Source: Styela clava
Taxonomy: Eukaryota; Chordata; Ascidiacea; Stolidobranchia; Styelidae
Direction of reading: 5' to 3'
Length of the DNA stretch: 64,000 nt
NCBI RefSeq assembly: GCF_964204865.1
Contig: NC_135250.1
Span: 10,106,001-10,170,000 of the forward strand
Each line of letters starts with the position of its first letter. Position 1 is the stretch's first letter. The position numbers and the translations under genes were made by a program. A model generated the notes under the pieces. The model ran no database searches. It was not told where the DNA came from and saw nothing but the letters and a program-made list of their open reading frames with translations. Positions 30,407-57,559 of this stretch are shown piece by piece.

Positions 30407-31977
30407 ATGTTGAGCTTCGTTACCAAGGGTGTTTTAATCTTGTTAGTCATTGGAATTTCGCAAACAAAGGGCGAGTGCTGCGGTCGTGGCAGAAATGGTA
30501 TGTATATTTTTATATTTGAATATTCAAATTTAATTTAATCAAACTTAATTAATTTTATTTAAAACTTAAAATGCGTAATGTTTCATTTCATACCTCACTG
30601 GTTCTCAACCTTTGAAGAACTAATTTAATTACGGTTATTATGGTTATGGGTTTATTCCATTTCCACCACAAATTTTTATCAAAATGATTGTAAATTACAG
30701 TTGTACTCGCATAAAAGATTCATGTTCAGTAAACCATATTTATTTTCATGATTCTATGCTTTTTACCGTATGACTTTTTCCTTTTCTCAGGATTTTGTAA
30801 AAATTGTGCGAGGGTGGGCTTTTGGAGATCACAAAAATGTTGTGGCCTAACAAGTGGAAACGAAAAGGGGGGATGCAATATATTTTGTTGCAATTGTATC
30901 TGTGCCCATGGACATCCTATTATCTCCTGTGAGTCTGCTTACATTTTTATTAGTTGGGAATCAAGTATTTTTCTGAGAATAAATAGAAAATTTCCTAAGT
31001 GTTATTTAGTTTTGGTAACTAGTTGTTCAATCTGATTCTCATTTTCACTGATTCATTTCTTCTTGAAAATGTGCAAAGACATTCTTGTCTGGCAATTTAT
31101 GTGATGTTATTGTGTTTCAACGAACCTTTATTTCAAAATTAATAATACTCACCGAAAAGAAAATTTTCACCTATATTCATTGATGACATTACAAATTATT
31201 GAAACGATTTTTAAAATTTACTTAGGGAGGAGATACTTGAAAGCGGGTGAATCAAGTCACTACACTTGCAAGCAAGACGTTCACACCGTTCCTCACGGTG
31301 ATGCTGAACGATACATCGACCTCGATTCCAAGAAAAACGCTTGGGACGTTTTCAACAGCCTCGATCAAGACCAGGATCTCAAAATCAACCGGAATGAGTT
31401 TTTCGACGCTATGAAAGCTCGCTTGTCAGTGAGTAGAAATAAAGAAATATACTTTACAATACTACTACATTAGCAAAAAGAGAAGTAAATATACATCATA
31501 TACTTCGGTTATATTTTGTCACATTCTGGTGAATTGAATGGAGAATAAGATGATTCGAAAACAATATGCAATTCTATGCGTTTGTTTGAATATTATCTGG
31601 CGCAATGCGTGATTTAATATAAAATTCAAGAATGTATTTTTTGGGTCGGGTTTAAGTTAAATATGAATAACGATATGGCCGGGTAAACGGCAACATGTAA
31701 AATCGTTATGGGCAGTACTTTCAGAATAAGGATTTTCATGTGTTCAATATGTTTCTACTGACAGGATGACCACGATGATGCTGACTTGTTCGCATCTCAT
31801 CTGCTGGATACCGATTTCCTCGACACAATTGCCGCATACTTGGATGCTGATGATGATATGATTCACGATACCGTGAAGGACCGTGCCATGGCTTCAATTT
31901 TCCAGGAGTTTAACAAAATGGATGTGGATGAAGACGGGTATATCCAGGCCGGCGAATTCGACAAAGATTTAAAATAA
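30407..31977 (+). CDS. Secreted Cys-rich EF-hand protein, gene I
   Basis: Four exons: 30407-30497, 30791-30928, 31226-31428 and 31765-31977, all with GT..AG introns, giving 214 residues. Residues 1-22 form a signal peptide (hydrophobic core GVLILLVIGI). Residues 24-68 form a compact cysteine-rich domain with eleven cysteines (C24, 25, 33, 36, 47, 48, 59, 63, 64, 66, 68), rich in Gly and ending GHP. Two canonical 12-residue EF-hand loops follow: DQDQDLKINRNE (123-134) and DVDEDGYIQAGE (197-208), each with acidic positions 1, 3, 5 and 12. The segment between them is very acidic. Likely role: extracellular calcium binding; I do not recognise a named family with this order of domains. Intron 2 is 297 bases, shorter than in genes II-V. 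AATAAA lies at 32091. First of a plus-strand array of five. Confidence 0.88.
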
Positions 31978-34284
31978 ACCGAAAGTTATATCCTATTGCC
32001 AGAAATTTGATTTTAAATTGAACTATAATATTGTGAACAGAAAATTTCATTTCCGTAACATATGATAGGTTTCTTTTTGTACATATACCAAATAAAAGTC
32101 ACAGACTGATTGTCAACTATTTGACTTATAAAATCTATTCCGGCCCCAATACTTAAAATAGGAAGTACACTGAAAGCCATCTCACGTGTAATTGATAGCA
32201 TTTTCTTTGTGAAATTTGACAAACGTTATTCCATTTTCCTTGAACTTTAGCATGTGTGATAATAGCAAGGTATTATATTTTATTATTATTTTATGTAGGC
32301 CTACTTATTATTTTTAGCTTGTCGATGTGATTCAGAACCATTTTGCGTCACAGACATTTAGGTTTGGGAAATGACTAAGATTTTTTGGCAGTATGGCAGT
32401 AACCACTGTCATGAATAGTGATATTTTTGACTTTTATTATAATATACTCATACTTGCATTCAAACTTTGTTTTATGATTGTAATGATAGAAAGGTTTCAG
32501 TGGTATCAGCATCGATTCATGTGTACAGTGAAAATATCGTTTCGTTCTTCTTCCGGTAAATACTGCATTCAATTTGAATGCGTGAAATATTTTGGTGCAA
32601 TTTTAATTGATAAAAGATTAAAGCGGATAAAAATTTTATGTTGTACAAATATGCTCTGTAAAATATTTCTATGGAAAAAATTTGTTGGGAAAAATTTCAT
32701 TCCAGTACTGACGAAATTTCCTTCGTATTAGCCACATATTGACGAATGTAAAGTGCAAATTGTGCCCTACTTTTAAATCATTCGAACCAATGATTTACCA
32801 ATTTTTGATTAATTAGCCCTGCCAAAGTCTAACGGTCTTACGCGAAGAAGTAGAAGCGACCGCCTAAACTCCAACAATACCAGGAATTGACGGTATAGCT
32901 CAAGCGTCGCACGTGTTGATCAGTGCTTAAACAAAAATCAGATTAAGGCTTGTTTCACCAAAACTTTGCCATTCTTGGATGCTTTTTCGTTGGATTTTTG
33001 AAATGAAAAGCTCCTACTACGTTCCGATGTCCGCCATCTTCAGGAAACTATGTACTAAGCAGGGAAGTTATAGTCATATTTCAATAATAGCTCATTGCAA
33101 CACTCAAAGGGCCACAGTGCCGACTGCAAGCCACAGTGAAAACTGAGGCTGCATATATGGTAAAACTGGAGTAATAATATAGCATTCACGTTAAAATGAG
33201 GCAACTCAGATTTTCTTTTTTCAAAAAATTTAGCTTAGAATATAATGGCTTAAGCGCCAATAAATTCAATTCTCTTTCGTATTTTAAGATTGAAATGTTA
33301 CCTCTTACCTATCATATATACATATTTCGAGCTCTCCATCCCTTCTACACGTTTTAAAAATAACACATATTCCATTGCTTATGCGAGTTAATATTTTTAC
33401 TTCATAATTAAAATGGAAATAAAATAAAATTAATATTGAAGCATAAAATAAATATTGAAATCTTCTTTTGAGTAAATTATGTAAATTTTAGCATCCAATA
33501 TCTACGATAGTTTTTAGTTAATCATGGCACAAGTAGGAAAAAGGATAAAATAATGATGTCTTGGAAACAGAATTTCGAAATGTATTTCTTCAGAATATTG
33601 ACGCTGTCTCTTAAAAAGTAACAACAGTATTATACTATTATACAACAGTATTATACAGTCCCATTGTTCTGAGTTTAGAAAAACATTTATTGCCGGAATG
33701 TTTAAAATAAACAAGTGAAGTGGAATTCAAGACTTTTCCAAATTTTTGCTTCCCCATCGGGAAGAATTTCCCCTTCATGGAGAATATGTAAATAGCTTAT
33801 GTGATTAACGCAGTATTTCATCACAACGATTCGTAACATTTAGACAGAGGAAGTTGTTCTATAGTTTTAACATGAGAGTGAAATAAAACAAAATAAAACT
33901 GTGTTAACGTTTTAAATATTTTTTCAAAAATTCTCTCAACTGCAAATTCGATTCGCAGAAAGTTGTTAACATTGTTAAAATGATTCTTAGGAGAATTCAC
34001 ATAAAATATTCAAATTATTTAAAATTTTGTCTAGATTCACTTGGTTTTGAGTTTTATACCCGGAACAAAAAATATTTAAAAAAAATAGCAAAGTTATAGA
34101 CCATTGCAATTCCCCACGGATTGTATCTATAGCGCGTACACCTTTCACAGGACCATCGTTTGCGAGAATACTTTTCACGAGATTGCAGTTTAGCAAGATA
34201 AAACATTTGCTCAAATATTGTTTTATACAAACGTGTTTTTGCAGGTAGAAACAGAAATTATTGAATATTTCATCACCGGAAAAT
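31978..34284. other. 3' flank of gene I
   Basis: The part to about 33500 is shared with the 3' flanks of genes II (about 40480-41500) and V. In particular, 32815-33500 matches about 54640-55640 beyond the end of the array. The rest to 34284 is A/T-rich and shows nothing I can name. Confidence 0.55.
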
Positions 34285-34700: not shown

Positions 34701-34975
34701 AAAAACTTATAAAACAGGACTTACTTACGATGTACAGGTTTATGATGTGTTATTCAAACTACACAACGGTCTAACTTGGTCGGGGCAGCGCGCAGGACGA
34801 ATTCCCACGATTCGCCCGGCGTTAACGACCACCGTGCACACACCCACTAACGAGCGTCCGCTTTTTACCGTGTTCAAAAAATTTTCCTACGGTTCTCCTC
34901 GAGGGTAGCGACCTCTTCTGGATGTCACCGTAGCGCTCTCTTCTCGTGCTGTACGTTTAGTGTTATGATTTATGA

Positions 34976-36550: not shown

Positions 36551-36558
36551 ATTTATGA

Positions 36559-38517
36559 TGTGTATGTTATATCCATAATAAACTCAAGCATTCAAGATAT
36601 GTATCGCAATCACAGAAACACCATTAGCGCAAAATTACACACAACATGACATATTGCGTTGTCAGAACGTTACAAATTCGTATAAGCTTGTTTTACAAGT
36701 TTGTTCTAATAAATTTTATTCCTATATTAATACATAATATAATATACTACATATTAATTCTATGAATCATTCTAAAACATGTATCACTTGTTACAAATAG
36801 TTTCCAATAGAGTTCTACAAAATGTGAATCAATAGATGGAATGATACAATGAAGTCAATAGCAAAATGAATCTGCTTTCGAAACTCACAAACACAATATT
36901 CAAAATATGAAAAGAATGTGAATTTGAATGAGAAAATCCAACGGAAAACTAGAAAACAATAAAATGTGAAGTAACACAAATGAATCGTGAATTGTGCTGA
37001 TTCGATTTATTCAAATAAATGACCAACTGACCATAAAATCATTATTGTTAAAATTGAATAGTCAGAAGAACATGAAAATCTTGCAACATCATTTGCAATA
37101 AAAAATTTGGTGGATCATATTTTTCAATCTCAGCATTTCCTCTGATCGTATGAATGACTGAATGGGATCATGCATAAAGTAGCATGAAATTCAAAAGAAA
37201 TATCCTGGCAATTTTTTTTTCGAGGTTGTTTGCATTTATTTTTCGTTCTGAATCTTCAATGATAAATTTATATTTTTATGGAACTGATAAAATAAAGCAA
37301 CCGTCAAACAGTAAACGCGAGTTGTGATCAGTGTCTTCCGTCACTGATGCAAAAATGTGAAATTAAAAAAAAAAAAAATTTACCACCTTGTAAAAACCAA
37401 TTATTAATATCCAGTTGGGGTTAGGGTTGGAAATGATTTGAAAATGATTTGAAAATTTGAATTTCGAGCGCAATCTGCATTCCTGATTCAAACCCTAACT
37501 GGATAATTACTAATTTTACTATTTTGAACGGTGGCAGTGTTTTTTTTTGCGAGCGCTTTGTACAAAAGATCCCTCGAGTTGTATTGGGACATATTGCTTG
37601 CAATTAATTATTGTTATTATATCCGTGTTGAGAGCGAGCTGTCTCTCTACAGACTGTTTTGTTTAAATTTGCATTTGGATTGTATGGTTTTACAAATGCT
37701 GTCCAAATGAGGCAGACGCAAAGAGTCAAAAAAGCACTTAAATGAGTAAAAAACAGACATCTATACCTGGAATTTCACATCAACTTTACGACGTTTGTTG
37801 GAATATTCCTCTTTTTCATTTGTAAGGAAAATTATTGTACAATTGATTTTGTTAACTTCATTCATGACGAAGATTTGAAAGAAACATCAATTTTTTATCA
37901 ACGACCGGAAAGTATTCCAGCATTGTAGGAAAATACGCTCCCATTGCTTATATCCTTTTTTTTTATCAATGCCAATGCAACAAATAGGATTCCGCATTTG
38001 CATTCTATTTTTTTTTCAAATAATACAAAGAGTTGACGGCAGTAAAGTGTTTTTTTGTCACCAAAAAGTATATAATAGGAGATAATGTTGAAAAACAAAG
38101 CACAACTGTTGGACGGGTCCAGAGAAACGAAGAACTAAGTTTGTGTGCTTTCCAAATGCCTTTGTAAATTCTGCAACATTCCATCATGTAAATTGAATAT
38201 GAAATTATTCAAAGAGACGAAATTCAAGAATTTGGATACAAAAACTATTTAGAAACGTGTACAAAAATTTAGTTATATTTAACATAATAGGCATTTTATG
38301 AGAAATTTCGCTGCACACTTATATTTATAACTCTAAAAATATAACTCATCTAATAATGAGACTTCCGCAATTCTTCATCAAATATATCGAATAATCATTA
38401 ATCTCTGAGTAGACAAACATTTCACAGTCAATGCTTGCAAGTAACTTTGTTTTTGGCCAAAAGTACACTAAAAAAACATTTAAAGTATATGTTTTCCATA
38501 CAGTATTAATCTTAAAC
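36559..38517. other. Upstream block of EF-hand gene II
   Basis: Shared with 26500-30400 and with the upstream parts of genes III-V. It contains the conserved TATA-like box at 38069-38075, about 450 bases before the ATG. No coding region is supported. Confidence 0.6.
38069..38075 (+). promoter_or_regulatory. Candidate TATA box, EF-hand gene II
   Basis: TATATAATAGGAGATAATG, matching the conserved box of genes I and III-V. Confidence 0.45.
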
Positions 38518-40468
38518 ATGTTGATGAACATCGCTACCAAAGGTGTTTTAATTTTGTTAGTAATTGGGATTTCGAAAACAAATGGCGCGTGCTGCGGTCG
38601 TGGCGATCATGGTATGTATATTTTTATATTTGAATATTTAAATTTTAATTCATCTAAATAAGAAACTAAAAATGCGTAGTTTTTTATTTAATATCTCACT
38701 GGTTTGCAACCTTTGAAGAACTAACTCAATTCAATATGTTTATGTTTACATTTCCACCACAAGTTTTCAGAAAAATGAATGTAAATTACATACAGTTCAG
38801 TTGTACACGCACAAAAATTTTATTTTCAGTAACTCATATTTCTTTTATGAATTCTATGCTTATTTCCGTACGAATTTGTTTTTTCGGTGCATCTCAGGAT
38901 TTTGTCAAGATTGTGCCAAGGTGAGCATTTGGGGAAGACAAAAATGTTGTGGCCTGACAAGTGGTAACAAAAGTGGAGGATGCAATATATTTTGTTGCAA
39001 TTGTATATGTGCTCATGGACATCCTATTATCACCTGTAAGTCTACTTACTTGTTATTATTCGTAGAAAAGCAACGCGGTATTTTTCCTATTCGAGTGATA
39101 ATATTAATTAGAAAAATCAAAATGTTATTTAGTTTTGGTAACAAGTTGTTCAATCTGGGCATTGATTCCATAATTAACAATAGCTAACAACAATTCAATC
39201 TGTTGGAAAAATTTTCTGTTTCGACCGACTCCGTGTCTACAGTGAAAGTATGTGGCTTTTGTCGTGTCGCGTCACCAGCATTCTCGGTTTCTTCTTCGGC
39301 AAGTTTATGTGCTTACTGCTTACAAGCTTAAAATGAGAAAAATCATATAAAAATGAGTCTGTCTGAAGTTGGTCAGATTTTTTCTTTCAGCATGTGTTTA
39401 TCGACTCTTTGCTCAGTTACTTTGGAGTTCATTATAAGTGAGAAATTTGGCGGAAATGATGACATTAATGATATATATTACAAATTTTTTGAAACGATTT
39501 TTCAATTTTACTTAGACAAGAGATACTTGAAAGAGGGCGAAACAAGCCGCTACACTTGTAAGCAAGACGTTCATACCGTTCCTCACGGTGATGTTGACAA
39601 ATACATCGACCACGATTCCAAGAAAAGCGCTTGGGAAGTTTTCAACAGCGTCGATCAAGACCAGGATCTCAAAATCAACCGGAATGAGTTTTTCGACGCT
39701 ATGAAAGCTCGCTTGTCAGTGAGTAGAAATGAAGAAATATCGTTTAATAAATTTACTATATTTAATACTACTACATTAGGTAAAAAGAGACGCAAATATT
39801 TACAAATTTCGGCTATATTTTGCCATATTCTGGGGAATTGGGTGGAAAATAAGATAATTCAAAAAGACGAGTTATCAAATGAAACGTGGAGAGTAAAGTA
39901 TTGGTAAAAGCATTCCCAAATCAACGATATTTTGCCTGAAATATTGCTATGCTTGTTATACATTTCAAACGATATTACTACCAATACCCAATAGTAAAAC
40001 ATCAAAATGATTGAATAGGATCTGGCACTGACTCGATATAGAATTTAGGAATTATTTTTTTGGTCAGGTATAAAAATATGAAAAACAACTCAATAAGAAA
40101 TGCTGAACTGACAAAATCTAAAAAAATTCGCAAAATTCATAAAAGCTTGTATTTGTACGTAGTGCTAACTACGATATGATCCGGTAAACGGTAACATTGT
40201 GTGCGGTACTCTTTGAATAAGAATTTCCATGTGTTCAATGTGTTTTTACTAACAGAATGACAACGATGATGCTGACTTATTCGCATCTCATCTGCTGGAT
40301 ACCGATTTCCTCGACACAATATCCGCCTATTTAGATGCTGATGATGAGGTGGTTCATGATACCGTGAAGGAACGTGCCATGCGTTCAATTTTCCAGGAGT
40401 TTGATAAAATGGATGTGGATGAAGACGGGTATATCCAGGCTGGCGAATTCGACAAGGATTTAAAATAA
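38518..40468 (+). CDS. Secreted Cys-rich EF-hand protein, gene II
   Basis: Exons 38518-38611, 38898-39035, 39516-39718 and 40256-40468 give 215 residues. The signal peptide has one more residue than gene I. The cysteine pattern is the same. EF-hand loops are DQDQDLKINRNE and DVDEDGYIQAGE. Differences from gene I include VSIWGR for VGFWRS in the Cys domain, a Y in place of W at the exon 2/3 junction, and N instead of D as the first residue of exon 4. Intron 2 is 480 bases and contains about 180 bases not present in gene I. Poly-A signal AATTAAA-like near 40613. Splice phases (1, 1, 0) match the other copies. Confidence 0.88.
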
Positions 40469-42661
40469 ACCAAAAGTTATATCCTATTGCCAGAAATTTC
40501 ATTTTAAATTGAACCAAATTTCATTTTAAATTGAATCATGAACAGAGAAAATTTCATTTCCATAATATAACATGATAGATTACTTTTTGTACATATATAC
40601 ACCAATTAAAAAGAATCTTAGAATGATTGATAAAAATCTTTTCCGGCCTTAATTCTTGAGAAAATTGTTTTCGTAGCTTGAAACGATTTTAGACCCTCGT
40701 TTTCAGGCCGTAACCGCTAGCTGTTATGATCTAACTTCAGATTTTTTCAAATTGCAGAACCCCTCCCTTTAAAAATTCATGGCTAACATTGGAAGTTAAC
40801 GATAATTTTAGTGCTATTTCAATATTATTTTATATAATGATTATTTTGAGCTTGTCGGTGTGATTTAGAACCAGTCCAATCATTCAATGATAGTTGGTCA
40901 CAGACCTTCAGATTATAGAGATTATAGAAAATCTTGAGATTTTTCTGACACTATGGCAGTAACCACTGTTAGGAAAGTGATATTTTTGACTTTCATTATA
41001 ATATACCCGAAGTTGCATTCAAACATTGTATGGTTGTATTGTATTGTATTTATGATTGTTGTGGCAGAAAGATTTCAGTGATATCTACGTCGATTCATAT
41101 TCACAATGAAAACCTTGTTTCGTTTACGTCCGGTAAATACCGCCTTCATCATCATCAAAGCACGCTATTCATATATGTACTGAAATGGTTTACAAAATTT
41201 CGCTCCACTGGAAAAACTTTTTCTAAAATATATACCGAGCAAATTTGGTGATTCAATTGGAAATTTGAATTTGTGAAATATTTTGCGGAAATTTTCATTG
41301 GCAATAGACAAAAGCGGGAAACAATTTGATGTTATACAAATACGCTCGGTAAAATATTTTTATAAAAAAAATTTTCACGGAAAAATATTCCTTCGAGACC
41401 TGACGAAATTTTCTTTCTATGAGCCACATTTTGACGAATGTAAAGTGCAATCCTGCCCTACGCAAATCATTTGAACTTATGATTTATCAATTTTGGATTA
41501 ATAAGTCCTTGTCAAAGTCCTACGCAACTTCATGAGAAAAGTATTGCTATCCTATTTAAAAGTCGAAATTATTTCAATTCTAACACAAAATATACAAAAA
41601 TACGAATATTTTGGCAAAATGAAACTGATTTCGAAACTCACCCAGTATTCAAAACATAAAAATTTAAATGGGAAAATCTGACAGAAAACTAAAAAAAAGG
41701 TGTAATACCGCAAATGAATAGTGAATGCATATTTGATTTATTCAAATAAATGACTAACTGATCAAAAATCATTAATGTTAAAACTGAATAGGCAGAAGAA
41801 CAAGAAGAACATGCAAATCTTGCAACTTCATTTGCACTGGAAAATTTTGCGAATCATATTTTTCAATCTCAGCATTTCCTCTAATTGTGCAAACAATTGA
41901 AAGAAATCACGCATAATGTAGCCTGAAATTTATAAAAAATATTCTGGAAATTTCATTTTCAAAATTGTTTGCATTTATCTTTTGTTTTGAATCCTCAATG
42001 TTAGATTTATATTTTATGAAATTGGTATATAAAAGCAACATTCAAAGATTCCAGAAAAACACACTCACCACGTTTTAAACGACAAATTAGTTATTATCCA
42101 GTTGGGGATAGGGTTAGGAATGACTTGGAAATTTGAATTTCCAGCGCTATATTATCTCAATCGTTGGTGGTGTTTTTATTTTCAAATAATACAAATTGTT
42201 AACGGTAGTGAAATTTATTTTTTCACCAAAAGGTATATAATAGAAGATAATGTTGAAAATGAACGCACAACTGTTGGCCGGACAGATAAACAAACTGCTA
42301 AATTTGTGCGATTTTTAAATGCCTTCGAAAATAATCAGAGAAAAATAGTGGATAGAAACCTAAATATTTAGAAACATTGTCTTGAATATTACAAATTTGA
42401 TTTTTGTTTTATGTTCAGTAAATTCGGCAAAAATTGGAGGAGTTGGGTATAAAAAAATTGAGAAATATGTACACAAATTCAATTATATTTAACTTAATAG
42501 GCCATTTTATCAAAATATTCCATGCTAATTTTTATTCATAACTCTACAAAAGGAAGACAAACATTTTCCAAACAATGCTTGCTAGTAATTTTGTCTTTGG
42601 CCCAAAATACACCTGAAAATGACATTTAAAATATGTCTTTTATACAGCATTAATCTTAAAC
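40469..42661. other. Intergenic between EF-hand genes II and III
   Basis: 3' flank of II and 5' flank of III, repeated between III/IV (44598-47040) and IV/V (48982-51406). Short open frames here recur only because the whole unit is duplicated. The TATA-like box for gene III is at 42234-42240. Confidence 0.6.
42234..42240 (+). promoter_or_regulatory. Candidate TATA box, EF-hand gene III
   Basis: TATATAATAGAAGATAATG, preceded by a conserved TTGTTAACGGTAGTGAAAT stretch. Equivalent boxes lie at 46613-46619 (IV) and 50979-50985 (V). Confidence 0.45.
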
Positions 42662-44597
42662 ATGTTGAGCTCCGTTACCAAGGGTGTTTTAATCCTATTA
42701 GTAATTGGAATTTTGAAAACAAATGGCGATTGCTGCGGTCGTGGTAAACACGGTATGTATATTTTTATACTTGTGTATTTTAAATCTCAACTTATCTGAA
42801 CAATAAATTTAAAATGCGCAATTTTTTCTGTAATATCTCACTGGTTCCCAACGTTTGAAAAACTAGTTCAATTCCCTGTTCTTATGGGCTTATACCATTT
42901 TCGCCACAAATTTTCAGAAAAATGATTGTGAATTACAGTTGTACACGCACAAAAATTTCATTTTCAGTAACCCATATTTATTTTTATGAATTGTATGTTT
43001 TACCGTCGACTTTGGTTTTTCGTTTATCTCAGGATTTTGTCAAAATTGTGCGAAGGTTAGCATTTGGGGAAGACAAAAATGTTGTGGCCTGACAAGTGGA
43101 AAGAAAGGTGGAGGATGCAATATATTTTGTTGCAATTGTATATGTGCTCATGGACATCCTATTATCACCTGTAAGTCTACTTACTTGGTATTATTCGTAG
43201 AAAAGCAACGAGGTATTTTTCCTATTCGTGTGATAATATTGATTATAAAAATCAAAATGTTATTTAGTTTTGGTAACAATCTGGGCATTGATTCCACAAT
43301 TAACAATAGCTATCAAAAATTCAATCCGTTGGATAAATTTTCTGTTTCGACCGACTCCGTGTCTACAGTGAAAGTATGTAGCTTTTGCCGTGTCGCGTCA
43401 CCAGCATCCTCGGTTTCTTCTTCGGCAAGTTTATGTGCTTACTGCTTACAAGCTTAAAATGAGAAAAATCATATAAAAATGAGTCTGTCTGAAGATGGTC
43501 AGATTTGTTCTTTCAGCATGTGTTTATCGACTCTTTGCTTAGTTACTTTGGAGTTCATTATAACTGAGAAATTCGGCGGAAATGATGACATTAATGATAT
43601 ATATTACAAATTTTTTAAAACGATTTTTCAATTTTACTTAGACAAGAGATACTTGAAAGAGGGCGAAAGAAGCCACTACACTTGTAAGCGAGACGTTCAT
43701 ACCGTTCCTCACGGTGATGTTGACAGATACATCGACCACGATTCCAAGAAAAGCGCTTGGGAAGTTTTCAACAGCGTCGATCAAGACCAGGATCTCAAAT
43801 CAACCGGAATGAGTTTTTCGACGCTATCAAAGCTCGCTTGTCAGTGAGTAGAAATGAAGAAATATACCTTACTAAATTTACTATATTTAATACTACTACA
43901 TTAGATAAAAAAGAGACGCAAATATGTATAAATTTCTGCTATATTTTGCCATATTCCGGGGAATTGAGTAGAAAATAAGATAATTTAAGAAGACGAGTTA
44001 TCAAGTGAAACGTGAAGAGTAAAGTATTTGTAAAAGCATTCCCAAATCAACGATATTTTGCCAGAAATATTGCTATGCTTGTTATACATTTCAAACGATA
44101 TCACCACTAATACCCAATAGTAAAACATCAAAATGATTGAATAGGATCTGGCACTGACTCGATATAGAATTTAGGAATTACTTTTTTGGTCAGGTATAAA
44201 AATAGGAGAAACAACTCAATACGAAATGCTGAACTGACGAAATTCCAAAAAAAATCGCAAAATTCGTAAAAGCTTGTATTCGTACGTAGTGCTAACTACG
44301 ATATGACCCGGTAAACGGTAACATTGTGTATACTCTTTGATTTGAATAAGAATTTCCATGTGTTCAATGTGTTTTTACTAACAGGATGACAACGATGATG
44401 CTGACTTATTCGCATCTCATCTGCTGGATACCGATTTCCTCGACACAATATCCGCCTATTTAGATGCTGATGATGAGGTGGTTCATGATACCGTGAAGGA
44501 ACGTGCCATGCGTTCAATTTTCCAGGAGTTTGATAAAATGGATGTGGATGAAGACGGGTATATCCAGGCTGGCGAATTCGACAAAGATTTAAAATAA
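42662..44597 (+). pseudogene. Cys-rich EF-hand gene III with 1-base deletion
   Basis: Exons by homology: 42662-42752, 43033-43170, 43642-43843 and 44385-44597. Signal peptide, cysteine domain and splice sites are intact and nearly identical to gene IV. At about 43797-43800 the sequence has CTCAAATC where genes I, II, IV and V have CTCAAAATC. This loses one base within the first EF-hand loop after DQDQDL. Exon 3 is therefore 202 rather than 203 bases and the frame shifts, ending soon after the loop; the second EF-hand would be lost. A truncated Cys-rich protein could still be secreted. A sequencing error in this one base is possible because the rest of the gene shows no decay. Confidence 0.65.
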
Positions 44598-47040
44598 ACC
44601 AAAAGTTATATCCTATTGCCAGAAATTTGATTTTAGATTGAACTATAATATCATGAACTGAGAAAATTTCATTTCCGTAACATATAATAGGTTGCTTTTT
44701 GTACATATACCAAATAAAAAGTCACAGACTGATTGTTAACTATTTGACTTTTAAAATCTTTTCCGGTCTCAATTTTTGAAGAAATATTTTGAAATAAGAA
44801 GTACACTGAAAAGCATCTCATGTGTTATTGACTGTTGTTTATTTGTGATAATTTACAAACCATATATTATATACCGCATTTTCTTGGACTTCATCATGTT
44901 TGGTATTAGCGGGGCATTAAGATTCTATAATATCGTGTCGTGAGCCAAGGACGTATATTCATGGGGTAATCCCATTTTGAAATGTGAACAAAGCAGTTTT
45001 CTGTATCAAACATAGCAATTTTTGAGCTTGAAACGCTCTTACACCCTCAAAACTCCCGAGAACTCTTGTTTTCCGACCAGACCCGCTAGATGTTATGATC
45101 TAACTTCAGATTTCTTCAAATTGCAGAACCCCTCCCTTTAAAGATTCCTGGCTAACATTGGAAGTTAACGATAATTTTAGTGCTATTTCAATATTATTTT
45201 ATATAATGATTATTTTGAGCTTGTCGGTGTGATTTAGAACCAGTCCAATCATTCAATGATAGTTGGTCACAGACCTTCCGATTATAGAAAATTCTACGAT
45301 TTAAGAATTGACTGAGATTTTTCTGACAATATGGCAGTAACCACTGTTAGGAAAGTGATATTTTTGACTTTTATATTATAATATACTCAAATTTGCATTC
45401 AAACATTGTATGGTTGTATTGTATTGTATTTATGATTGTGGTGGCAGAAAGATTTCAGTGATATCTGCATCGATTCATATTCACAATGGAAACCTTGTTT
45501 CGTTTACGTCCGGTAAATACCGCCTTCATCATCATCAAAGCACGCAATTCATATATGTACTGAAATGGTTTACAAAATTTCACTCCACTGGAAAAACTTT
45601 TTTTAAAATATATACCGAGCAAATTTGGTGATTCAATTGGAAATTTGAATTTGTGAAATATTTTGCGGAAATTTTCATTGGCAATAGACAAAAGCGGGAA
45701 GCAATTTGATGTTATACAAATACGCTTGGTAAAATATTTAAAAAAAAAAAATTTTCACGGAAAAATATTCCTTCGAGACCTGACGAAATTTTCTTTCTAT
45801 GAGCCACATTTTGACGAATGTAAAGTGCAATACTGCCCTACGCAAATCATTTGAACTTATGATTTATCAATTTTGGATTAATAAGTCCTTGTCAAAGTCC
45901 TGCGCAACTTCATGAGAAAAGTATTGCTATCCTATTTAAAATTCGAAATAATTTCAATTCTAACACAAAATATACAAAAATACGAATATTTTGGCAAAAT
46001 GAATCTGATTTCGAAACTCATCCAGTATTCAAAACACAAAAATTTAAATGGGAAAATCTGACAGAAAACTAAAAAAAGGTGTAATACCGCAAATGAATGG
46101 TGAATGCATATTTGATTTATTCAAATAAATGACTAACTGATCAAAAATCATTAATGTTAAAACTGAATAGGCAGAAGAACAAGAAGAACATGCACATCTT
46201 GCAACTTCATTTGCACAGGAAAATTTTGCGAATCATATTTTTCAATCTCAGCATTTCCTCTAATTGTGCAAACAATTGAAAGAAATCACGCATAATGTAG
46301 CCTGAAATTTATAAAAAATATTCTGGAAATTTCATTTTCAAAATTGTTTGCATTTATCTTTTGTTTTGAATCCTCAATGTTAGATTTATATTTTATGAAA
46401 TTGGTATATAAAAGCAACATTCAAAGATTCCAGAAAAACACACTCACCACGTTTTAAACGACAAATTAGTTATTATCCAGTTGGGGATAGGGTTAGGAAT
46501 GACTTGGAAATTTGAATTTCCAGCGCTATATTATCTCAATCGTTGGTGGTGTTTTTATTTTCAAATAATACAAATTGTTAACGGTAGTGAAATTTATTTT
46601 TTCACCAAAAGGTATATAATAGAAGATAATGTTGAAAATGAACGCACAACTGTTGGCCGGACAGATAAACAAACTGCTAAATTTGTGCGATTTTTAAATG
46701 CCTTCGAAAATAATCAGAGAAAAATAGTGGATAGAAACCTAAATATTTAGGAACATTGTCTTGAATATTACAAATTTGATTTTTGTTTTATGTTCAGTAA
46801 ATTCGGCAAAAATTGGAGGAGTTGGGTATAAAAAAATTGAGAAATATGTACACAAATTCAATTATATTTAACTTAATAGGCCATTTTATCAAAATATTCC
46901 ATGCTAATTTTTATTCATAACTCTACAAAAGGAAGACAAACATTTTCCAAACAATGCTTGCTAGTAATTTTGTCTTTGGCCCAAAATACACCTGAAAATG
47001 ACATTTAAAATATGTCTTTTATACAGCATTAATCTTAAAC

Positions 47041-48981
47041 ATGTTGAGCTCCGTTACCAAGGGTGTTTTAATCCTATTAGTAATTGGAATTTTGAAAACA
47101 AATGGCGATTGCTGCGGTCGTGGTAAACACGGTATGTATATTTTTATACTTGTGTATTTTAAATCTCAACTTATCTGAACAATAAATTTAAAATGCGCAA
47201 TTTTTTCTGTAATATCTCACTGGTTCCCAACGTTTGAAAAACTAGTTCAATTCCCTGTTCTTATAGGCTTATACCATTTTCGCCACAAATTTTCAGAAAA
47301 ATGATTGTGAATTACAGTTGTACACGCACAAAAATTTCATTTTCAGTAACCCATATATATTTATTTTTATGAATTGTATGTTTTACCGTCGACTTTGGTT
47401 TTTCGTTTATCTCAGGATTTTGTCAAAATTGTGCGAAGGTTAGCATTTGGGGAAGACAAAAATGTTGTGGCCTGACAAGTGGAAAGAAAGGTGGAGGATG
47501 CAATATATTTTGTTGCAATTGTATATGTGCTCATGGACATCCTATTATCACCTGTAAGTCTACTTACTTGGTATTATTCGTAGAAAAGCAACGAGGTATT
47601 TTTCCTATTCGTGTGATAATATTGATTATAAAAATCAAAATGTTATTTAGTTTTGGTAACAATCTGGGCATTGATTCCACAATTAACAATAGCTATCAAA
47701 AATTCAATCCGTTGGATAAATTTTCTGTTTCGACCGACTCCGTGTCTACAGTGAAAGTATGTAGCTTTTGCCGTGTCGCGTCACCAGCATCCTCGGTTTC
47801 TTCTTCGGCAAGTTTATGTGCTTACTGCTTACAAGCTTAAAATGAGAAAAATCATATAAAAATGAGTCTGTCTGAAGATGGTCAGATTTGTTCTTTCAGC
47901 ATGTGTTTATCGACTCTTTGCTTAGTTACTTTGGAGTTCATTATAACTGAGAAATTCGGCGGAAATGATGACATTAATGATATATATTACAAATTTTTTG
48001 AAACGATTTTTCAATTTTACTTAGACAAGAGATACTTGAAAGAGGGCGAAAGAAGCCACTACACTTGTAAGCGAGACGTTCATACCGTTCCTCACGGTGA
48101 TGTTGACAGATACATCGACCACGATTCCAAGAAAAGCGCTTGGGAAGTTTTCAACAGCGTCGATCAAGACCAGGATCTCAAAATCAACCGGAATGAGTTT
48201 TTCGACGCTATCAAAGCTCGCTTGTCAGTGAGTAGAAATGAAGAAATATACCTTACTAAATTTACTATATTTAATACTACTACATTAGATAAAAAAGAGA
48301 CGCAAATATGTATAAATTTCTGCTATATTTTGCCATATTCCGGGGAATTGAGTGGAAAATAAGATAATTTAAGAAGACGAGTTATCAAGTGAAACGTGAA
48401 GAGTAAAGTATTTGTAAAAGCATTCCCAAATCAACGATATTTTGCCAGAAATATTGCTATGCTTGTTATACATTTCAAACGATATCACCACTAATACCCA
48501 ATAGTAAAACATCAAAATGATTGAATAGGATCTGGCACTGACTCGATATAGAATTTAGGAATTACTTTTTTGGTCAGGTATAAAAATAGGAGAAACAACT
48601 CAATACGAAATGCTGAACTGACGAAATTCCAAAAAAAATCGCAAAATTCGTAAAAGCTTGTATTCGTACGTAGTGCTAACTACGATATGACCCGGTAAAC
48701 GGTAACATTGTGTACACTCTTTGATTTGAATAAGAATTTCCATGTGTTCAATGTGTTTTTACTAACAGGATGACAACGATGATGCTGACTTATTCGCATC
48801 TCATCTGCTGGATACCGATTTCCTCGACACAATATCCGCCTATTTAGATGCTGATGATGAGGTGGTTCATGATACCGTGAAGGAACGTGCCATGCGTTCA
48901 ATTTTCCAGGAGTTTGATAAAATGGATGTGGATGAAGACGGGTATATCCAGGCTGGCGAATTCGACAAAGATTTAAAATAA
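47041..48981 (+). CDS. Secreted Cys-rich EF-hand protein, gene IV
   Basis: Exons 47041-47131, 47416-47553, 48025-48227 and 48769-48981 give 214 residues. The signal peptide has the GVLILLVIGI core and the mature start is near DCCGRG. The cysteine domain has the same eleven-cysteine pattern, and both EF-hand loops are complete (DQDQDLKINRNE, DVDEDGYIQAGE). It differs from gene V by RS/KR for TS/KQ around the twelfth cysteine in exon 3 and by D for E in HLLDTDF. AATAAA at 49097. Very recent duplicate of gene III, without its deletion. Confidence 0.9.
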
Positions 48982-51406
48982 ACCAAAAGTTATATCCTAT
49001 TGCCAGAAATTTGATTTTAGATTGAACTATAATATCATGAACTGAGAAAATTTCATTTCCGTAACATATAATAGGTTGCTTTTTGTACATATACCAAATA
49101 AAAAGTCACAGACTGATTGTTAACTATTTGACTTTTAAAATCTTTTCCGGTCTCAATTTTTGAAGAAATATTTTGAAATAAGAAGTACACTGAAAAGCAT
49201 CTCATGTGTTATTGACTGTTGTTTATTTGTGATAATTTACAAACCATATATTATATACCGCATTTTCTTGGACTTCATCATGTTTGGTATTAGCGAGGCA
49301 TTAAGATTCTATAATATCGTGTCGTGAGCCAAGGACGTATATTCATGGGGTAATCCCATTTTGAAATGTGAACAAAGCAGTTTTCTGTATCAAACATAGC
49401 AATTTTTGAGCTTGAAACGCTCTTACACCCTCAAAACTCCCGAGAACTCTTGTTTTCCGACCAGACCCGCTAGATGTTATGATCTAACTTCAGATTTCTT
49501 CAAATTGCAGAACCCCTCCCTTTAAAGATTCCTGGCTAACATTGGAAGTTAACGATAATTTTAGTGCTATTTCAATATTATTTTATATAATGATTATTTT
49601 GAGCTTGTCGGTGTGATTTAGAACCAGTCCAATCATTCAATGATAGTTGGTCACAGACCTTCCGATTATAGAAAATTCTAAGATTTAAGAATTGACTGAG
49701 ATTTTTCTGACAATATGGCAGTAACCACTGTTAGGAAAGTGATATTTTTGACTTTTATATTATAATATACTCAAATTTGCATTCAAACATTGTATGGTTG
49801 TATTGTATTGTATTTATGATTGTGGTGGCAGAAAGATTTCAGTGATATCTGCATCGATTCATATTCACAATGGAAACCTTGTTTCGTTTACGTCCGGTAA
49901 ATACCGCCTTCATCATCATCAAAGCACGCAATTCATATATGTACTGAAATGGTTTACAAAATTTCACTCCACTGGAAAAACTTTTTTTAAAATATATACC
50001 GAGCAAATTTGGTGATTCAATTGGAAATTTGAATTTGTGAAATATTTTGCGGAAATTTTCATTGGCAATAGACAAAAGCGGGAAGCAATTTGATGTTATA
50101 CAAATACGCTTGGTAAAATATTTAAAAAAAAAAAATTTTCACGGAAAAATATTCCTTCGAGACCTGACGAAATTTTCTTTCTATGAGCCACATTTTGACG
50201 AATGTAAAGTGCAATACTGCCCTACGCAAATCATTTGAACTTATGATTTATCAATTTTGGATTAATAAGTCCTTGTCAAAGTCCTGCGCAACTTCATGAG
50301 AAAAGTATTGCTATCCTATTTAAAAGTCGAAATTATTTCAATTCTAACACAAAATATACAAAAATACGAATATTTTGGCAAAATGAATCTGATTTCGAAA
50401 CTCACCCAGTATTCAAAACATAAAAATTTAAATGAGAAAATCTGACAGAAAACTAAAAAAAAGGTGTAATACCGCAAATGAATAGTGAATGAATATTTGA
50501 TTTATTCAAATAAATGACTAACTGATCAAAAATCATTAATGTTAAAACTGAATAGGCAGAAGAACAAGAAGAACATGCAAATCTTGCAACTTCATTTGCA
50601 CTGGAAAATTTTGCGAATCATATTTTTCAATCTCAGCATTTCTTCTAATTGTGCAAACAATTGAAAGAAATCACGCATAATGTAGCCTGAAATTTATAAA
50701 AAATATTCTGGCAATTTCATTTTCTTTTGTTTCGAATCCTCAATGTTAGATTTATATTTTATGAAATTGGTATATAAAAGCAACATTCAAAGATTCCAGA
50801 AAAACACACTCACCACGTTCTAAATGACAAATAAGTTATTATCCAGTTGGGGATAGGGTTAGGAATGACTTGAAAATTTGAATTTCTAGCGCTATATTAT
50901 CTCAATCGTTGGTGGTGTTTTTATTTTCAAATAATACAAATTGTTAACGATGGTGAAATTTAATTTTTCACCAAAAGGTATATAATAGAAGATAATGTTG
51001 AAAATAAACGCACAACTGTTGGCCGGACAGATAAACAAACTGCTAAATTTGTGCGATTTTTAAATGACTTCGAAAATAATCAGAGAAAAATAGTGCATAG
51101 AAACCTAAAAATTTAAGAACATTGTCTTGAATATTACAAATTTGATTTTTGTTTTATGTTCAGTAAATTCGGCAAAAATTGGAGGAGTTGGGTATAAAAA
51201 TATTGAGAAATATGTACACAAATTCAATTATATTTAACTTAATAGGCCATTTTATCAAAATATTCCATGCTAATTTTTATTCATAACTCTACAAAAGGAA
51301 GACAAACATTTTCCAAGCAATGCTTGCTAGTAATTTTGTCTTTGGCCCAAAATACACCTGAAAATGACATTTAAAATATGTCTTTTATACAGCATTAATC
51401 TTAAAC

Positions 51407-53342
51407 ATGTTGAGCTCCGTTACCAAGGGTGTTTTAATCTTATTAGTAATTGGAATTTTGAAAACAAATGGCGATTGCTGCGGTCGTGGTAAACACGGTA
51501 TGTATATTTTTATACTTGTGTATTTTAAATCTCAACTTATCTGAACAATAAATTTAAAATGCGCAATTTTTCTGTAATATCTCACTGGTTCCCAACGTTT
51601 GAAAAACTAGTTCAATTCCCTGTTCTCATGGGCTTATACCATTTTCGCCACAAATTTTCAGCAAAATGATTGTGAATTACAGTTGTACACGCACAAAAAT
51701 TTCATTTTCAGAAACCCATATTTATTTTTATGAATTGTATGTTTTACCGTCGACTTTGGTTTTTCGTTTATCTCAGGATTTTGTCAAAATTGTGCGAAGG
51801 TTAGCATTTGGGGAAGACAAAAATGTTGTGGCCTGACAAGTGGAAAGAAAGGTGGAGGATGCAATATATTTTGTTGCAATTGTATATGTGCTCATGGACA
51901 TCCTATTATCACCTGTAAGTCTACTTACTTGGTATTATTCGTAGAAAAGCAACGAGGTATTTTTCCTATTCGTGTGATAATATTGATTATAAAAATCAAA
52001 ATGTTATTTAGTTTTGGTAACAATCTGGGCATTGATTCCACAATTAACAATAGCTATCAAAAATTCAATCCGTTGGATAAATTTTCTGTTTCGACCGACT
52101 CCGTGTCTACAGTGAAAGTATGTAGCTTTTGCCGTGTCGCGTCACCAGCATTCTCGGTTTCTTCTTCGGCAAGTTTATGTGCTTACTGCTTACAAGCTTA
52201 AAATGAGAAAAATCATATAAAAATGAGTCCGTCTGAAGATGGTCAGATTTGTTCTTTCAGCATGTGTTTATCGACTCTTTGCTTAGTTACTTTGGAGTTC
52301 ATTATAACTGAGAAATTCGGCGGAAATGATGACATTAATGATATATATTACAAATTTTTTGAAACGATTTTTCAATTTTACTTAGACAAGAGATACTTGA
52401 AAGAGGGCGAAACAAGCCACTACACTTGTAAGCAAGACGTTCATACCGTTCCTCACGGTGATGTTGACAGATACATCGACCACGATTCCAAGAAAAGCGC
52501 TTGGGAAGTTTTCAACAGCGTCGATCAAGACCAGGATCTCAAAATCAACCGGAATGAGTTTTTCGACGCTATCAAAGCTCGCTTGTCAGTGAGTAGAAAT
52601 GAAGAAATATACTTTACTAAATTTACTATATTTAATACTACTACATTAGATAAAAAAGAGACGCAAATATGTATAAATTTCGGGTATATTTTGCCATATT
52701 CCGGGGAATGGAGTGGAAAATAAGATAATTTAAAAAGACGAGTTATCAAGTGAAACGTGAAGAGTAAAGTATTTGTAAAAGCATTCCCAAATCAACGATA
52801 TTTTGCCAGAAATATTGCTATGCTTGTTATACATTTCAAACGATATCACCACTAATACCCAATAGTAAAACATCAAAATGATTGAATAGGATCTGGCACT
52901 GACTCGATATAGAATTTAGGAATTACTTTTTTGGTCAGGTATAAAAATATGAAAAACAACTCAATACGAAATGCTGAACTGACGAAATTCCAAAAAAAAT
53001 CGCAAAATTCGTAAAAGCTTGTATTCGTACGTAGTGCTAACTACGATATGACCCGGTAAACGGTAACATTGTGTATACTCTTCAATTTGAATAAGAATTT
53101 CCATGTGTTCAATGTGTTTTTACTAACAGGATGACAACGATGATGCTGACTTATTCGCATCTCATCTGCTGGAAACCGATTTCCTCGACACAATATCCGC
53201 CTATTTAGATGCTGATGATGAGGTGGTTCATGATACCGTGAAGGAACGTGCCATGCGTTCAATTTTCCAGGAGTTTGATAAAATGGATGTGGATGAAGAC
53301 GGGTATATCCAGGCTGGCGAATTCGACAAAGATTTAAAATAA
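51407..53342 (+). CDS. Secreted Cys-rich EF-hand protein, gene V
   Basis: Exons 51407-51497, 51777-51914, 52386-52588 and 53130-53342 give 214 residues. All features are as in gene IV: signal peptide, eleven-cysteine domain, twelfth cysteine before the EF pair, two canonical loops, acidic linker and a C-terminal DKDLK. Exon 3 keeps the ET-S and KQD residues also seen in gene II, so gene V may be closer to the parent of units III and IV. AATAAA at 53462. Last plus-strand copy. Confidence 0.9.
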
Positions 53343-56121
53343 ACCAAAAGTTATATCCTATTGCCAGAAATTTGATTTTAGATTGAACTATAATATCATG
53401 AACTGAGAAAATTTCATTTTCGTAACATATAATAGGTTGCTTTTTGTACATATATATACCAAATAAAAAGTCACCGACTGATTGTTAACTATTTGACTTT
53501 TAATAATCTTTTCCGGTCTCAATTTTTGAAGAAATATTTTGAAATAAGAAGTACACTGAAAAGCATCTCATGTGTTATTGACTGTTGTTTATTTGTGATA
53601 ATTTACAAACCATATAATATATACCACATTTTCTTGGACTTTATCATGTTTGGTATTAGCGAGGCATTAAGATTCTATAATATCGTGACGTGAGCCAAGG
53701 ACGTATATTCATGGGGTAATCCCATTTTGAAATGTGAACAAAGCAGTTTTCTGTATCAAACATAGCAATTTTTGAGCTTGAAACGCTCTTACACCCTCAA
53801 AACTCCCGAGAACTCTAGTTTTCCGACCAGACCCGCTAGATGTTATGGTCTAACTTCAGATTTCTTCAAATTGCAGAACCCCTCCCTTTAAAAATTCCTG
53901 GCTAACATTGGAAGTTAACGATAATTTTAGTGCTATTTCAATATTATTTTATATAATGATTATTTTGAGCTTGTCGGTGTGATTTAGAACCAGTCCAATC
54001 ATTCAATGATAGATAGACCTTTCGATTATAGAAAATTCTAAGATTTAAGAATTGACTGAGATTTTTCTGACAATATGGCAGTAACCACTGTTAGGAAAGT
54101 GATATTTTTGACTTTTATATTATAATATACTCAAATTTGCATTCAAACATTGTATGGTTGTATTGTATTGTATTTATGATTGTTGTGGCAGAAAGATTTC
54201 AGTGGTATCTACGTCGATTCATATTCACAATAAAAACCTTGTTTCGTTTACGTCCGGTAAATACTGCCTTCATCGTCATCAAAGCACGCTATTCATATAT
54301 GTACTGAAATGATTTATAAAATTTCACTCCACTGGAAAAAAAATTTCTGAAATATATACCGAGCAAATTTGGTGATTCAATTGGAAATTTGAATTCGGGA
54401 AATAATTTGCGGAAATTTTCATTGACAATAGTCAAAAGCGGGAAACAATTTGATGTTATACAAATACGCTCGGTAAAATATTTTTATGAAAAAAATTTTA
54501 CGGAAAAAAATTCCTTCGAGACCTGACGAAATTTTCTTTCTATGAGCCACATTTTGACGAATGTAAAGTGAAATCACGTCCCACGCAATTCATTTGAACT
54601 TATGATTTACCAATTTTGGATTAATGAGTCCTTGTCAAAGTCCTGCGCAAGGTCTTACGCGAAGAAGTAGGAGCGTTCGCTAAAACCCCAAATATACAAA
54701 GAAATGACGGTATCATTATAGCGCAAGCGTTTGCTCACAGGTGTTGATCAGTTTGGGGCTTAGGCCAATGCATTCATGTGTACTGAATACATTTAGGTAA
54801 AAAGTCACATAACTGAATTTTTTGAATCTCAAGTAACTTGCTAAAAAATATTCACTGGACAAAAACGGATGAGAGCTCATTGGCGAAGATCCGATTTACG
54901 ATAAATTTGTAATTTTAACCAGAAAAGCATTAGCGAGAATGGCAATAACGGTAGGTAGAAGGACATTGGGATATATTAGATTGAGACTTGCTTCACCAAA
55001 ACATTGTCATTATTTGATGCTTCTTGGTGCGAACCGTGCGATTTTCAAAAAAAAACCTTTGATTTTCCCCCAAAAAACATACTCCTTTTAGAAATAAATT
55101 TAAAAAGTGTGATTTTGAAATGCTGGAACAAAATTATGCATTAGATATGGAAGTGATAGTCATATTCCAATGATAGCTCATTGCAATAATCAGAAGGCCA
55201 CAATGCCGACTGCAAGCCACAATGACAACTGCTGCTGCTAATAATATAGCATTCACATTAAAATGAGGCAATTCAGATTTCTTTTCCTAATGAATTTAAT
55301 TGCCAATATCATAGTTTATGCGTCAACAAATTCATTTTTTTTAACTGCCTTATTTTAAGCTTGAAATTGTAAAAAAACTACCTATGTTACATCTTAGCTT
55401 ATCCTTTCCACCTGTATTAGGTTCTCCCCCACTCTACGTGTGTCAGAAATAAAGCGGATATTATGGGTTATGCGAATTCATATTTTTATCATTAATTAAT
55501 CATCATTAAAATAGATCATTAAAATAGAAATTAAATTCAAAGCATAAAATACTTGAACAGAAGGTTATTCTTGAATAATAAAATTCCTTTTTTGGGTAAA
55601 TTAAATGAAAATTAGCATCTAATAAATACGGACAAGCATAGATACCATTTGTTGTAACTCATTCACAGGACCCCAGAATCAAAATCCAGGTTATTTGGAA
55701 CATATTTTAGAAAAACATAACTTTTGTTCAAAGAGTCCTAGATTACTGAAACGATGGGTATAATCATACACAAACGGGTCAAGGGTCAATATATATATTT
55801 TTTTCATTTTTGTAAAAGTAATGTATGAGTTAGGTTCATTTCAGGCCACCATGTATATTTTATCGGAAAGTACATTATTCCGTATTCAATACATAATGAA
55901 AAGCATAATGTTTTAAAAAAAGTAAATATGAAGAACTGCGGTAAGTCTAATATATACGATAGATAACAGTTTATCATGGGGCAAGCAGATCTGTTAATCG
56001 AAACGATATTAAAATTTACGAGTTTAAACATCTCTATTTAAAAACTTGATATTCAATAAAATTTTACAGTTTTACAGGTACTGATTGTCTTCATTAGTTC
56101 TTCTACATATCCATAATTTAT
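53343..56121. other. 3' flank of the EF-hand array
   Basis: Bases to about 54640 repeat the inter-unit sequence. About 54640-55640 matches the far 3' flank of gene I (32815-33500), so the array expanded between these outer flanks. From 55640 to 56121 nothing is recognised. Confidence 0.6.
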
Positions 56122-57559
56122 TTATTCCAAATCGTGGTCGAATTCAGCAGCCTGAATCAAGCCATCTCCGTTGTCATCCATCATATTGAACTCTCGAGCA
56201 ATAATCGAGCCGAGATTGTTTTCGACATCTTCATCAGCATCTTCCATCAATTCTTCGTCGTTGATCGCATCGATAAAAGACAGAATTTCACCTTTATCAT
56301 TGGATTTCAGAAGATCGGAGGCCAAGAGATGGGCTTCGTTGTGCTGTATTTTTGGTATCAGAGAGTTAGACAGTTTAAGTTAAATATACCAATTTAAGCC
56401 TAGATTAGTGTATATATATATATATATATATAAGTATGGATTCATAAACAATGAAACTAACCAATCTAGTAATTTGATAAGTAATGTAATCTCGCACACT
56501 CAATGCGCAAAACTTACTGACGGCAACAAAAATGCCGAATCTATTCGTCATACAACAAAATTCCCGATTATGGTTTACACACTCACCGACAGACGATTCT
56601 TGATGGCTTTCAAAAACTCGCCAGGGTTAATGACCATGTCCCCATCATCATCGATGCTGTTAAAAGTCTCCCAAGTATCTTTCATCTCTTCAATATGAAT
56701 CTTGTCTTCGTCGCCTTCAGCGGTTTTGGTAGTGCATCGGTACTTGGCACTCAACCACCATCCGGCTAAAAAGAAACACAAACACAGTATAAGCAGTAGT
56801 ATTAGTGGATACGAATTTCTCGTTATTCTAATGGGGCGAAGCATAAGCGTTGGTTTCCTAGCTCAATGATTTTTCGTGATTGGTGCCAAACCAACCCAAG
56901 GCTTTACATGCAAGGCTTCATTCACATGTAGCCCGTATTGCGAATCTTTCATAATTTTCACGTCGATATCGCAATGAAAACATCATCACATGAAATGCCT
57001 GCAAATGTCGATAAAGCAAGGTATGAATATAAAATTGAAGAAACCTTATTAGCCATCTAGAGCGCTAACAACATTCATCAAAATATTCTACTCTGAAAAA
57101 ATAACTTAAAAATTACATACAGTTTACTACTTACAAAGTTTGACAAAGGTAGCATGGCCTTTTCTGCAGGAGCATGCACAGCAGAATACATTGCAGCCAT
57201 GCCCATGTCCACTCCCGGTGCCACAACATTTTCGATGATTGATAGCACCAACCTTACTACAGTCGTTGCAATATCCTGTATTATGTAAATATGTTTACAA
57301 TATCATAAAAAGTTCAACGGAATTTAAGTTAAGTTAAAGCTGAATGTATATATATACTGCACATTCTATGCAGATTATTTAAAAATTCGATTCTACACTA
57401 AATGGTTAAGAACTTTTGATCATACTATTTCCAAACGAAATTATATACATATATATATACATATGAATACTAACCCAATTTGCCATGTCCACAACATTTT
57501 GCTGAAGTTTCATAAATAGCCAGGCACGATAGAAATCCCAAAACCAACAGAATATTCAT
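56122..57559 (-). CDS. Secreted Cys-rich EF-hand protein, gene VI (divergent, minus strand)
   Basis: Reading on the minus strand, the exons are 57559-57475, 57275-57135, 56765-56587 and 56343-56122, total 208 residues. The intron phases (1, 1, 0) are the same as in genes I-V. It starts MNILLVLGFLSCLAIYETSA, a signal peptide, then the cysteine domain KCCGHG...GYCNDCSKVG...KCCGTGSGHGHGCNVFCC with the same spacing logic. Both EF loops are canonical (DDDGDMVINPGE and DDNGDGLIQAAE). The linker is shorter and the sequence outside motifs is only distantly similar. The stop codon overlaps AATAAATAAA. Convergent with gene V, it is probably an old paralogue left out of the recent amplification. It shows which parts of the family are under constraint: cysteines, EF loops and exon structure. 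Confidence 0.88.

Follow-up and report, generated by a model that had tools for sequence, protein, structure and literature searches.

A stretch of 64,000 nucleotides from the ascidian Styela clava (contig NC_135250.1, positions 10,106,001 to 10,170,000), here called the window, contains six genes whose predicted products join a secretory leader and a cysteine-rich head to a tail with EF-hand calcium loops. This raises the question whether the joining is a genuine protein architecture, whether it has a known counterpart, and which function it might exert. The initial annotation had described the genes as a six-member family and had stated that it knew of no named family in which the domains follow in this order. 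We find that the family is real, old and expanded and that it has a known counterpart in layout, namely the precursors of the antifungal mytimycins of mussels, which share with it both the layout and the type III cysteine array, so that the statement was wrong on architecture. As judged from the sequences, the genes probably encode mytimycin-like host-defence precursors with a longer tail that contains two loops and without a dibasic site conserved behind the last cysteine.

All six genes consist of four coding exons, five on the forward strand with starts at 30407, 38518, 42662, 47041 and 51407 (genes 1 to 5) and one on the reverse strand with its start at 57559 (gene 6). Every intron is of the GT-AG type and the phases are 1, 1 and 0 in six of six genes, and the coordinates, the exon count and the phases given by the initial annotation are thereby confirmed. 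Its family size, in contrast, was too small. The genome in which the window is C1:10106001-10170000 has 376,610,584 bases in 379 contigs, apparently with 19 large ones, as C18 has 20.1 Mb, C19 18.7 Mb and C20 0.45 Mb. Searched in six frames with the cysteine head of gene 6, it revealed at least 20 Cys-domain exons, of which 6 belong to the window, 13 to C4:4467753-4554833 and 1 to C6. Four-exon models were fitted for 12 of the 13 copies on C4; since the phases 1, 1, 0 were imposed and the splice sites were picked by similarity, these models are a fit and not a discovery. C4_a contains an in-frame stop in exon 2, and C4_j has lost the exon-2 donor that is present in its near twin C4_f, its chain using a false donor in place of the lost one, while 11 genes on C4 are apparently intact. 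For the copy on C6 (C6_a) no exon 1 was found within 2.5 kb and both loops are damaged. Together with genes 1, 2, 4, 5 and 6 this gives 16 intact genes of 20; the four damaged ones (gene 3, C4_a, C4_j and C6_a) are left out of the alignment, the tree and the charge table, and the 12-member set for profile scans omits in addition the near-copies gene 4, C4_i, C4_k and C4_l. The C4 genes f to i were copied as a block into j to m, the longer colinear pieces being 92–98% identical (90.5% mean over all 47 matches, in which cross-matches between older copies are included). Behind C4_e an orphan second exon 4 with an in-frame stop is present at C4:4497078-4497293 (L042). The proposal that a secreted calcium-binding protein was amplified by repeated copying is supported by this tandem family, and the window shows part of an older family and not a separate one.

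The 16 intact proteins start with a hydrophobic leader, called by a heuristic and not by SignalP, in which the residue at position -1 is small in all cases if cleavage occurs one residue before the first CC pair; no later hydrophobic stretch is present, the highest 19-residue mean being 0.99. The five intact window genes thus have the predicted signal peptide, with a small residue just before x-CC. The 11-cysteine array proposed earlier was found in the window as CC-x7-C-x2-C-x10-CC-x9/10-C-x3-CC-x-C-x-C, and the twelfth cysteine, encoded by exon 3, comes 20–22 residues after the eleventh. Family-wide the head reads CC-x7-C-x2-C-x10/12-CC-x7/10-C-x3-CC-x-C-x1/2-C, as the CC-x-C-x-C of the window genes corresponds to CC-x-C-x2-C in the C4 genes. 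Cys1 to Cys12 span 65–68 residues, 120–127 residues then follow, and the charge falls from +5 to +12 in the head to -19 to -27 in the tail in every intact gene. Both loops keep the pattern D-x-[DN]-x-D-x-x-I-x-x-x-E in 16/16 proteins, the chain ends six residues past loop 2, and the C-terminus is FDxDL[KE] throughout. In a classical EF-hand pair the loop starts lie roughly 36 residues apart; here the spacing is about twice that, with 74 residues in the window genes, 77 in gene 6 and 74–82 across the family, and a degenerate hand between the two loops is possible. The claim that all six genes encode a leader, 12 cysteines and two canonical EF loops therefore holds for five of them; gene 3 shares the leader and the 12 cysteines but has no complete EF loop owing to a frameshift, and the word canonical needs qualification because of the doubled spacing and because loop 1 of the window genes lacks the usual Gly at position 6. 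AlphaFold applied to the isolated exon 4 gave a model with helices at 3-15, 17-27, 31-50 and 66-69, which at a mean pLDDT of 58.8 is too weak to use.

The closest known counterpart of this layout is mytimycin, whose N-terminus presumably also carries CC-x7-C-x2-C and an N-I-F stretch as found here. In the published description the mytimycin precursor is composed of a signal peptide of 23 aa, a mature peptide of 54 aa with 12 cysteines and an anionic 75-aa extension with an EF-hand (PMC8004829), and the combination of 12 cysteines with an EF-hand is given concordantly in two other papers (PMC3210125; PMC6628016; see also PMC8719109); mytimycin entries named in the literature are AET85056.1, FJ804478 and FJ804479. 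The family from S. clava has the same succession of signal peptide, cationic 12-Cys peptide and acidic C-terminal EF-hand part. Of the five cysteine arrays distinguished for mytimycins, type III is CC-C-C-CC-C-CC-C-C-C (Table 1, PMC8004829), and this is the order observed in 16/16 proteins, a match of order only, for which spacings were not compared. The drop in charge from head to tail in all 16 proteins resembles the published profile in which the isoelectric point of mytimycin falls toward the C-terminus (PMC8004829). Both families are also multigene families with interrupted copies: 106 mytimycin variants are described across 16 mussel genomes, 18 of these 106 being interrupted (PMC8004829), and the family reported here is recently duplicated with 4 of 20 copies damaged. 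Mytimycin is described as expressed in hemocytes and up-regulated by Fusarium, while its fold is given as unsolved and the purpose of its EF-hand as unexplained in the same account (PMC8004829).

Several observations weigh against this assignment. The proteins contain two EF loops 74–82 residues apart, whereas mytimycin is described with "an EF-hand motif"; the distance from Cys1 to Cys12 alone exceeds, with 65–68 residues, the mature mytimycin peptide of 54 aa; and the 120–127 residues after the last head cysteine compare with an extension of 75 aa. Mytimycins carry a dibasic site between peptide and extension, which might serve cleavage, although one published sequence is without it (PMC8004829). 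In the present family, only 6/16 proteins have a dibasic pair in the stretch from Cys12 to loop 1 and the site is not conserved, while all 16 have such a pair between Cys11 and Cys12, where cleavage would split the head. The absence of a conserved dibasic site after Cys12 is not strictly defining, yet it lowers the mytimycin claim. The mytimycin gene has 3 exons, the first of which is said to be non-coding, compared with four coding exons here; moreover, the mature mytimycin peptide is reported to be mostly under purifying selection, and mytimycins are thought by their authors to be restricted to Mytilida (PMC8004829). To these points must be added the linker and first EF loop of genes 1–5, which have a dN/dS of 0.82, above that of the head of the same clade. 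The likeness to mytimycin is one of layout as given in published descriptions, and since lengths and loop number differ, we regard the family as mytimycin-like and do not file it among the mytimycins.

That the cysteine head and the EF loops belong together is evident from their conservation. None of the 12 cysteines varies among the 16 intact proteins, and the joining of head and loops is not due to chance, as it is kept in 16 intact genes at two loci despite saturation. Pairwise dN/dS analysis covered 12 of these genes and showed saturation of synonymous sites between the deep lineages, for which dS is at least 1.7 or not computable and dN about 0.3–0.7; since the cysteines and loops are nevertheless kept, the joined architecture is old and has been maintained by selection. 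The possibility that exons 1-2 and exons 3-4 represent separate genes was ruled out by the recurrence of the four-exon order in the 16 intact genes at the two loci. Young clades show pooled dN/dS values of 0.16–0.82 over mature regions, the region limits being approximate. In three clades, one of which is a single pair, the head evolves with values of 0.44, 0.51 and 0.69, which are higher than those of exon 4 (0.25, 0.16 and 0.24), a difference in line with the defence reading; in the pair C4_b/C4_c the value for the signal region is 1.10. In the tree, gene 6 is the sister of C4_e (support 99/98) and genes 1, 2, 4 and 5 are placed elsewhere; a single clade of window genes was rejected with p-AU 0.00255 for the five genes other than gene 3. 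The long end branches of C4_d, gene 6 and C4_e were flagged, as was the joining of C4_d to genes 1–5 at 88/86 as possibly false. A flanking block common to the window and the C4 DNA was also rejected: the comparison gave 29 DNA matches, namely one of 72 bp within exon 4 of gene 6 and 28 that are confined to positions below 27,000 or above 62,000, the latter being presumably dispersed repeats.

The individual gene models are as follows. Gene 1 (30407..31977, +) comprises exons 30407-30497, 30791-30928, 31226-31428 and 31765-31977 and encodes 214 aa with 12 cysteines and two EF loops, with an EF-hand_6 match of 5.6e-7 above cut-off; the whole codons of its exon 2 (30793..30927, +) encode 9 of the 12 cysteines, and its exon 4 (31765..31977, +) encodes calcium loop 2 and the acidic end FDKDLK, with counterparts in the last exons of the other genes. 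The equivalents of this exon 2 in genes 2 to 6 are found at 38900-39034, 43035-43169, 47418-47552 and 51779-51913 on the forward strand and at 57273-57136 on the reverse strand. Gene 2 (38518..40468, +; exons 38518-38611, 38898-39035, 39516-39718 and 40256-40468) encodes 215 aa and differs from gene 1 by a dN of 0.098 and a dS of 0.217. Gene 3 (42662..44597, +; exons 42662-42752, 43033-43170, 43642-43843 and 44385-44597) is frameshifted in exon 3 and has a predicted product of 168 aa. Gene 4 (47041..48981, +; exons 47041-47131, 47416-47553, 48025-48227 and 48769-48981) and gene 5 (51407..53342, +; exons 51407-51497, 51777-51914, 52386-52588 and 53130-53342) each encode 214 aa and differ by 4 nt in 636. 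Gene 6 (56122..57559, -; exons 57559-57475, 57275-57135, 56765-56587 and 56343-56122) encodes 208 aa and represents a divergent lineage. Exon sizes accordingly vary among the window genes, with 85–94, 138–141, 179–203 and 213–222 nt for exons 1 to 4. A pyrimidine-rich stretch ending in AG precedes the ATG by 14 bases in genes 1–5 (e.g., 30380-30406) and by 23 bases in gene 6, and by eye an AG about 30–40 bases before the ATG is found in several C4 genes, hinting at an intron in the 5' untranslated region or at a trans-splice site.

Genes 2 to 5 form a tandem array on the forward strand (38411..54573, limits approximate) with units of about 4.1–4.4 kb, the start-to-start distances being 4129, 4384 and 4361 (repeat family D1). 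In an alignment of the units of genes 3 and 4, 4328 of the 4360 aligned bases agree and 25 columns are gaps, and the start of gene 3, that is its leader, is the same as that of gene 4. Exon 3 of gene 3 has 202 nt compared with 203, with a run of AAA where genes 1, 2, 4 and 5 have AAAA, and because one A fewer shifts the frame, the product ends after 168 aa without a complete EF loop. Either the copy is damaged or the near-identical repeats were misassembled at this point. A segment found upstream of genes 1–5 has an extra copy at 27289-27555 (84% identical to the copy at 28761). It lies about 1.5 kb to the left of the copy that belongs to gene 1, and behind it the family search detected no gene.

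Since the layout combines elements that are common in secreted proteins, other known systems had to be considered. Proteins of the CREC family such as calumenin and reticulocalbin are proteins of the secretory path with six or so EF-hands and an HDEL-type C-terminus; the present proteins resemble them in signal peptide, EF-hands and acidity but differ by two loops, a 12-Cys head and the C-terminus FDxDL[KE]. CREC membership is ruled out by the two loops and this C-terminus in 16/16 proteins, and retention of the KDEL kind is unlikely, judging by the same C-terminus. Granulin has 12 cysteines with CC pairs in an order other than that of the present heads and is without an EF tail. It was ruled out on this cysteine order and by the absence of a granulin match in Pfam, although a likeness exists in that granulins are described as Cys-rich secreted modules (PMC4527844). 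A Pfam scan of genes 1 and 6 placed PF13405 above its curated cut-off in both, and an EF-hand match was found in all 12 members of the larger scanned set. The cysteine heads of genes 1 and 6 gave no Pfam match at cut-off, apart from which a chance hit to DUF5320 (E 3.3) was seen for gene 6. In the PDB nothing matched the head of gene 1, and the tail matched calmodulins, with a best E of 0.0097 for gene 6 and of 1.6e-8 for the profile of 12. NCBIfam gave only EF-hand models, which were far under cut-off in the member for which bit scores were listed, and chance matches; XopAW, which reached 13.6 of 120 bits in that member, matched 12/12 members (best 2e-7), and lanmodulin matched 5/12. No match was obtained in Rfam at the gathering threshold, for a Ciona spliced-leader pattern or for COX1. 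Among the pattern stretches in viral contigs (60 and 75) and in GTDB contigs (66), and in phages, no relative was confirmed, and no paper on such a family outside mussels was among the literature matches listed, which mostly do not include subscription journals.

The initial annotation had offered matrix, mineral, mucus and defence as possible roles, of which defence fits best and the other three less so. The main rival, which we consider unlikely, is a calcium-binding protein that has a structural or regulatory part in matrix, mucus, cuticle or mineral and in which the cysteine head would be a crosslinking or anchoring module, comparable to SPARC or shell EF-hand proteins. It is in line with the leader, the acidic tail and the two intact loops in 16/16 proteins, and four of the 12 scanned members show a weak match to SPARC_Ca_bdg, with a best E of 0.00083. 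SPARC itself, in which a follistatin-like domain is followed by an EF-hand pair, is likewise secreted, acidic and Cys-rich with EF-hands; membership was rejected, as no follistatin-like Pfam match was found and the loops lie 74–82 residues apart, which is not the spacing of a pair. Secreted EF-hand shell proteins are indeed described, e.g., Hdh-SMP5; however, neither follistatin nor Kazal nor another matrix domain appeared in the Pfam results, and the opposite charges of head and tail together with the duplicating and decaying copies suit a defence precursor better. A component of venom or of a predatory secretion, with an EF tail that modulates release, is suggested by CjTL3, a toxin-like protein of 93 aa from a sea anemone that is assigned, in its published entry, cysteine framework 10a and the EF-hand superfamily (PMC5673964); this likeness is one of description, and in view of purifying selection overall we judge such a role improbable. 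Even less credit is given to a metal-handling or redox protein whose head binds metal ions instead of forming disulfides: many cysteines, three CC pairs and a CC-x-C cluster would suit it, yet the secretory leader and an oxidising route would favour disulfides, and an invariant set of 12 cysteines in a basic head seems unlike a cation store.

For the favoured reading as mytimycin-like defence precursors, the following mechanism is conceivable. The leader would direct the protein into the secretory path, where the cationic head may fold with six disulfides and might, as in mytimycin, constitute the part active against microbes, above all fungi. The acidic tail could hold the cationic head folded, neutral and silent in calcium-rich secretory granules, until proteolysis or a change in calcium would release it, and tandem copying would raise the dose and yield variant heads. 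A more far-reaching proposal, which we put forward only tentatively and regard as rather doubtful, is that a calcium-gated precursor is older and wider in distribution than the mussels: the acidic two-loop tail would clamp the cationic head by charge in granules rich in calcium, the change in calcium outside the cell and not a dibasic cut would free it, and the mytimycin kind would predate Mytilida, the mussels having lost one loop and gained the cleavage site.

Elsewhere in the window, a second local family of hydrophobic-rich proteins was observed at 4682-5849, 7538-8797, 14427-15700 and 20443-21579, of whose four copies two are long and open (419 and 378 aa) and the others match in pieces only; the 378-aa copy gave no Pfam match up to E 10. 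An element at 25024-26053, about 1 kb long, has inverted ends (CAGGGTCG...) and is flanked by the 8-base direct repeat CTCTACGG, a combination which we take to be of the kind left by hAT-type DNA transposons. Right of gene 6, a direct duplication of a few hundred bases is visible by eye at about 57790-58040 and 58110-58400.

The role of the EF-hand becomes testable with a family that shows the mytimycin layout in about 20 copies, is deeply diverged within one genome and keeps both loops in every intact copy. If sequence homology holds true, the range of the mytimycin type of defence may widen.

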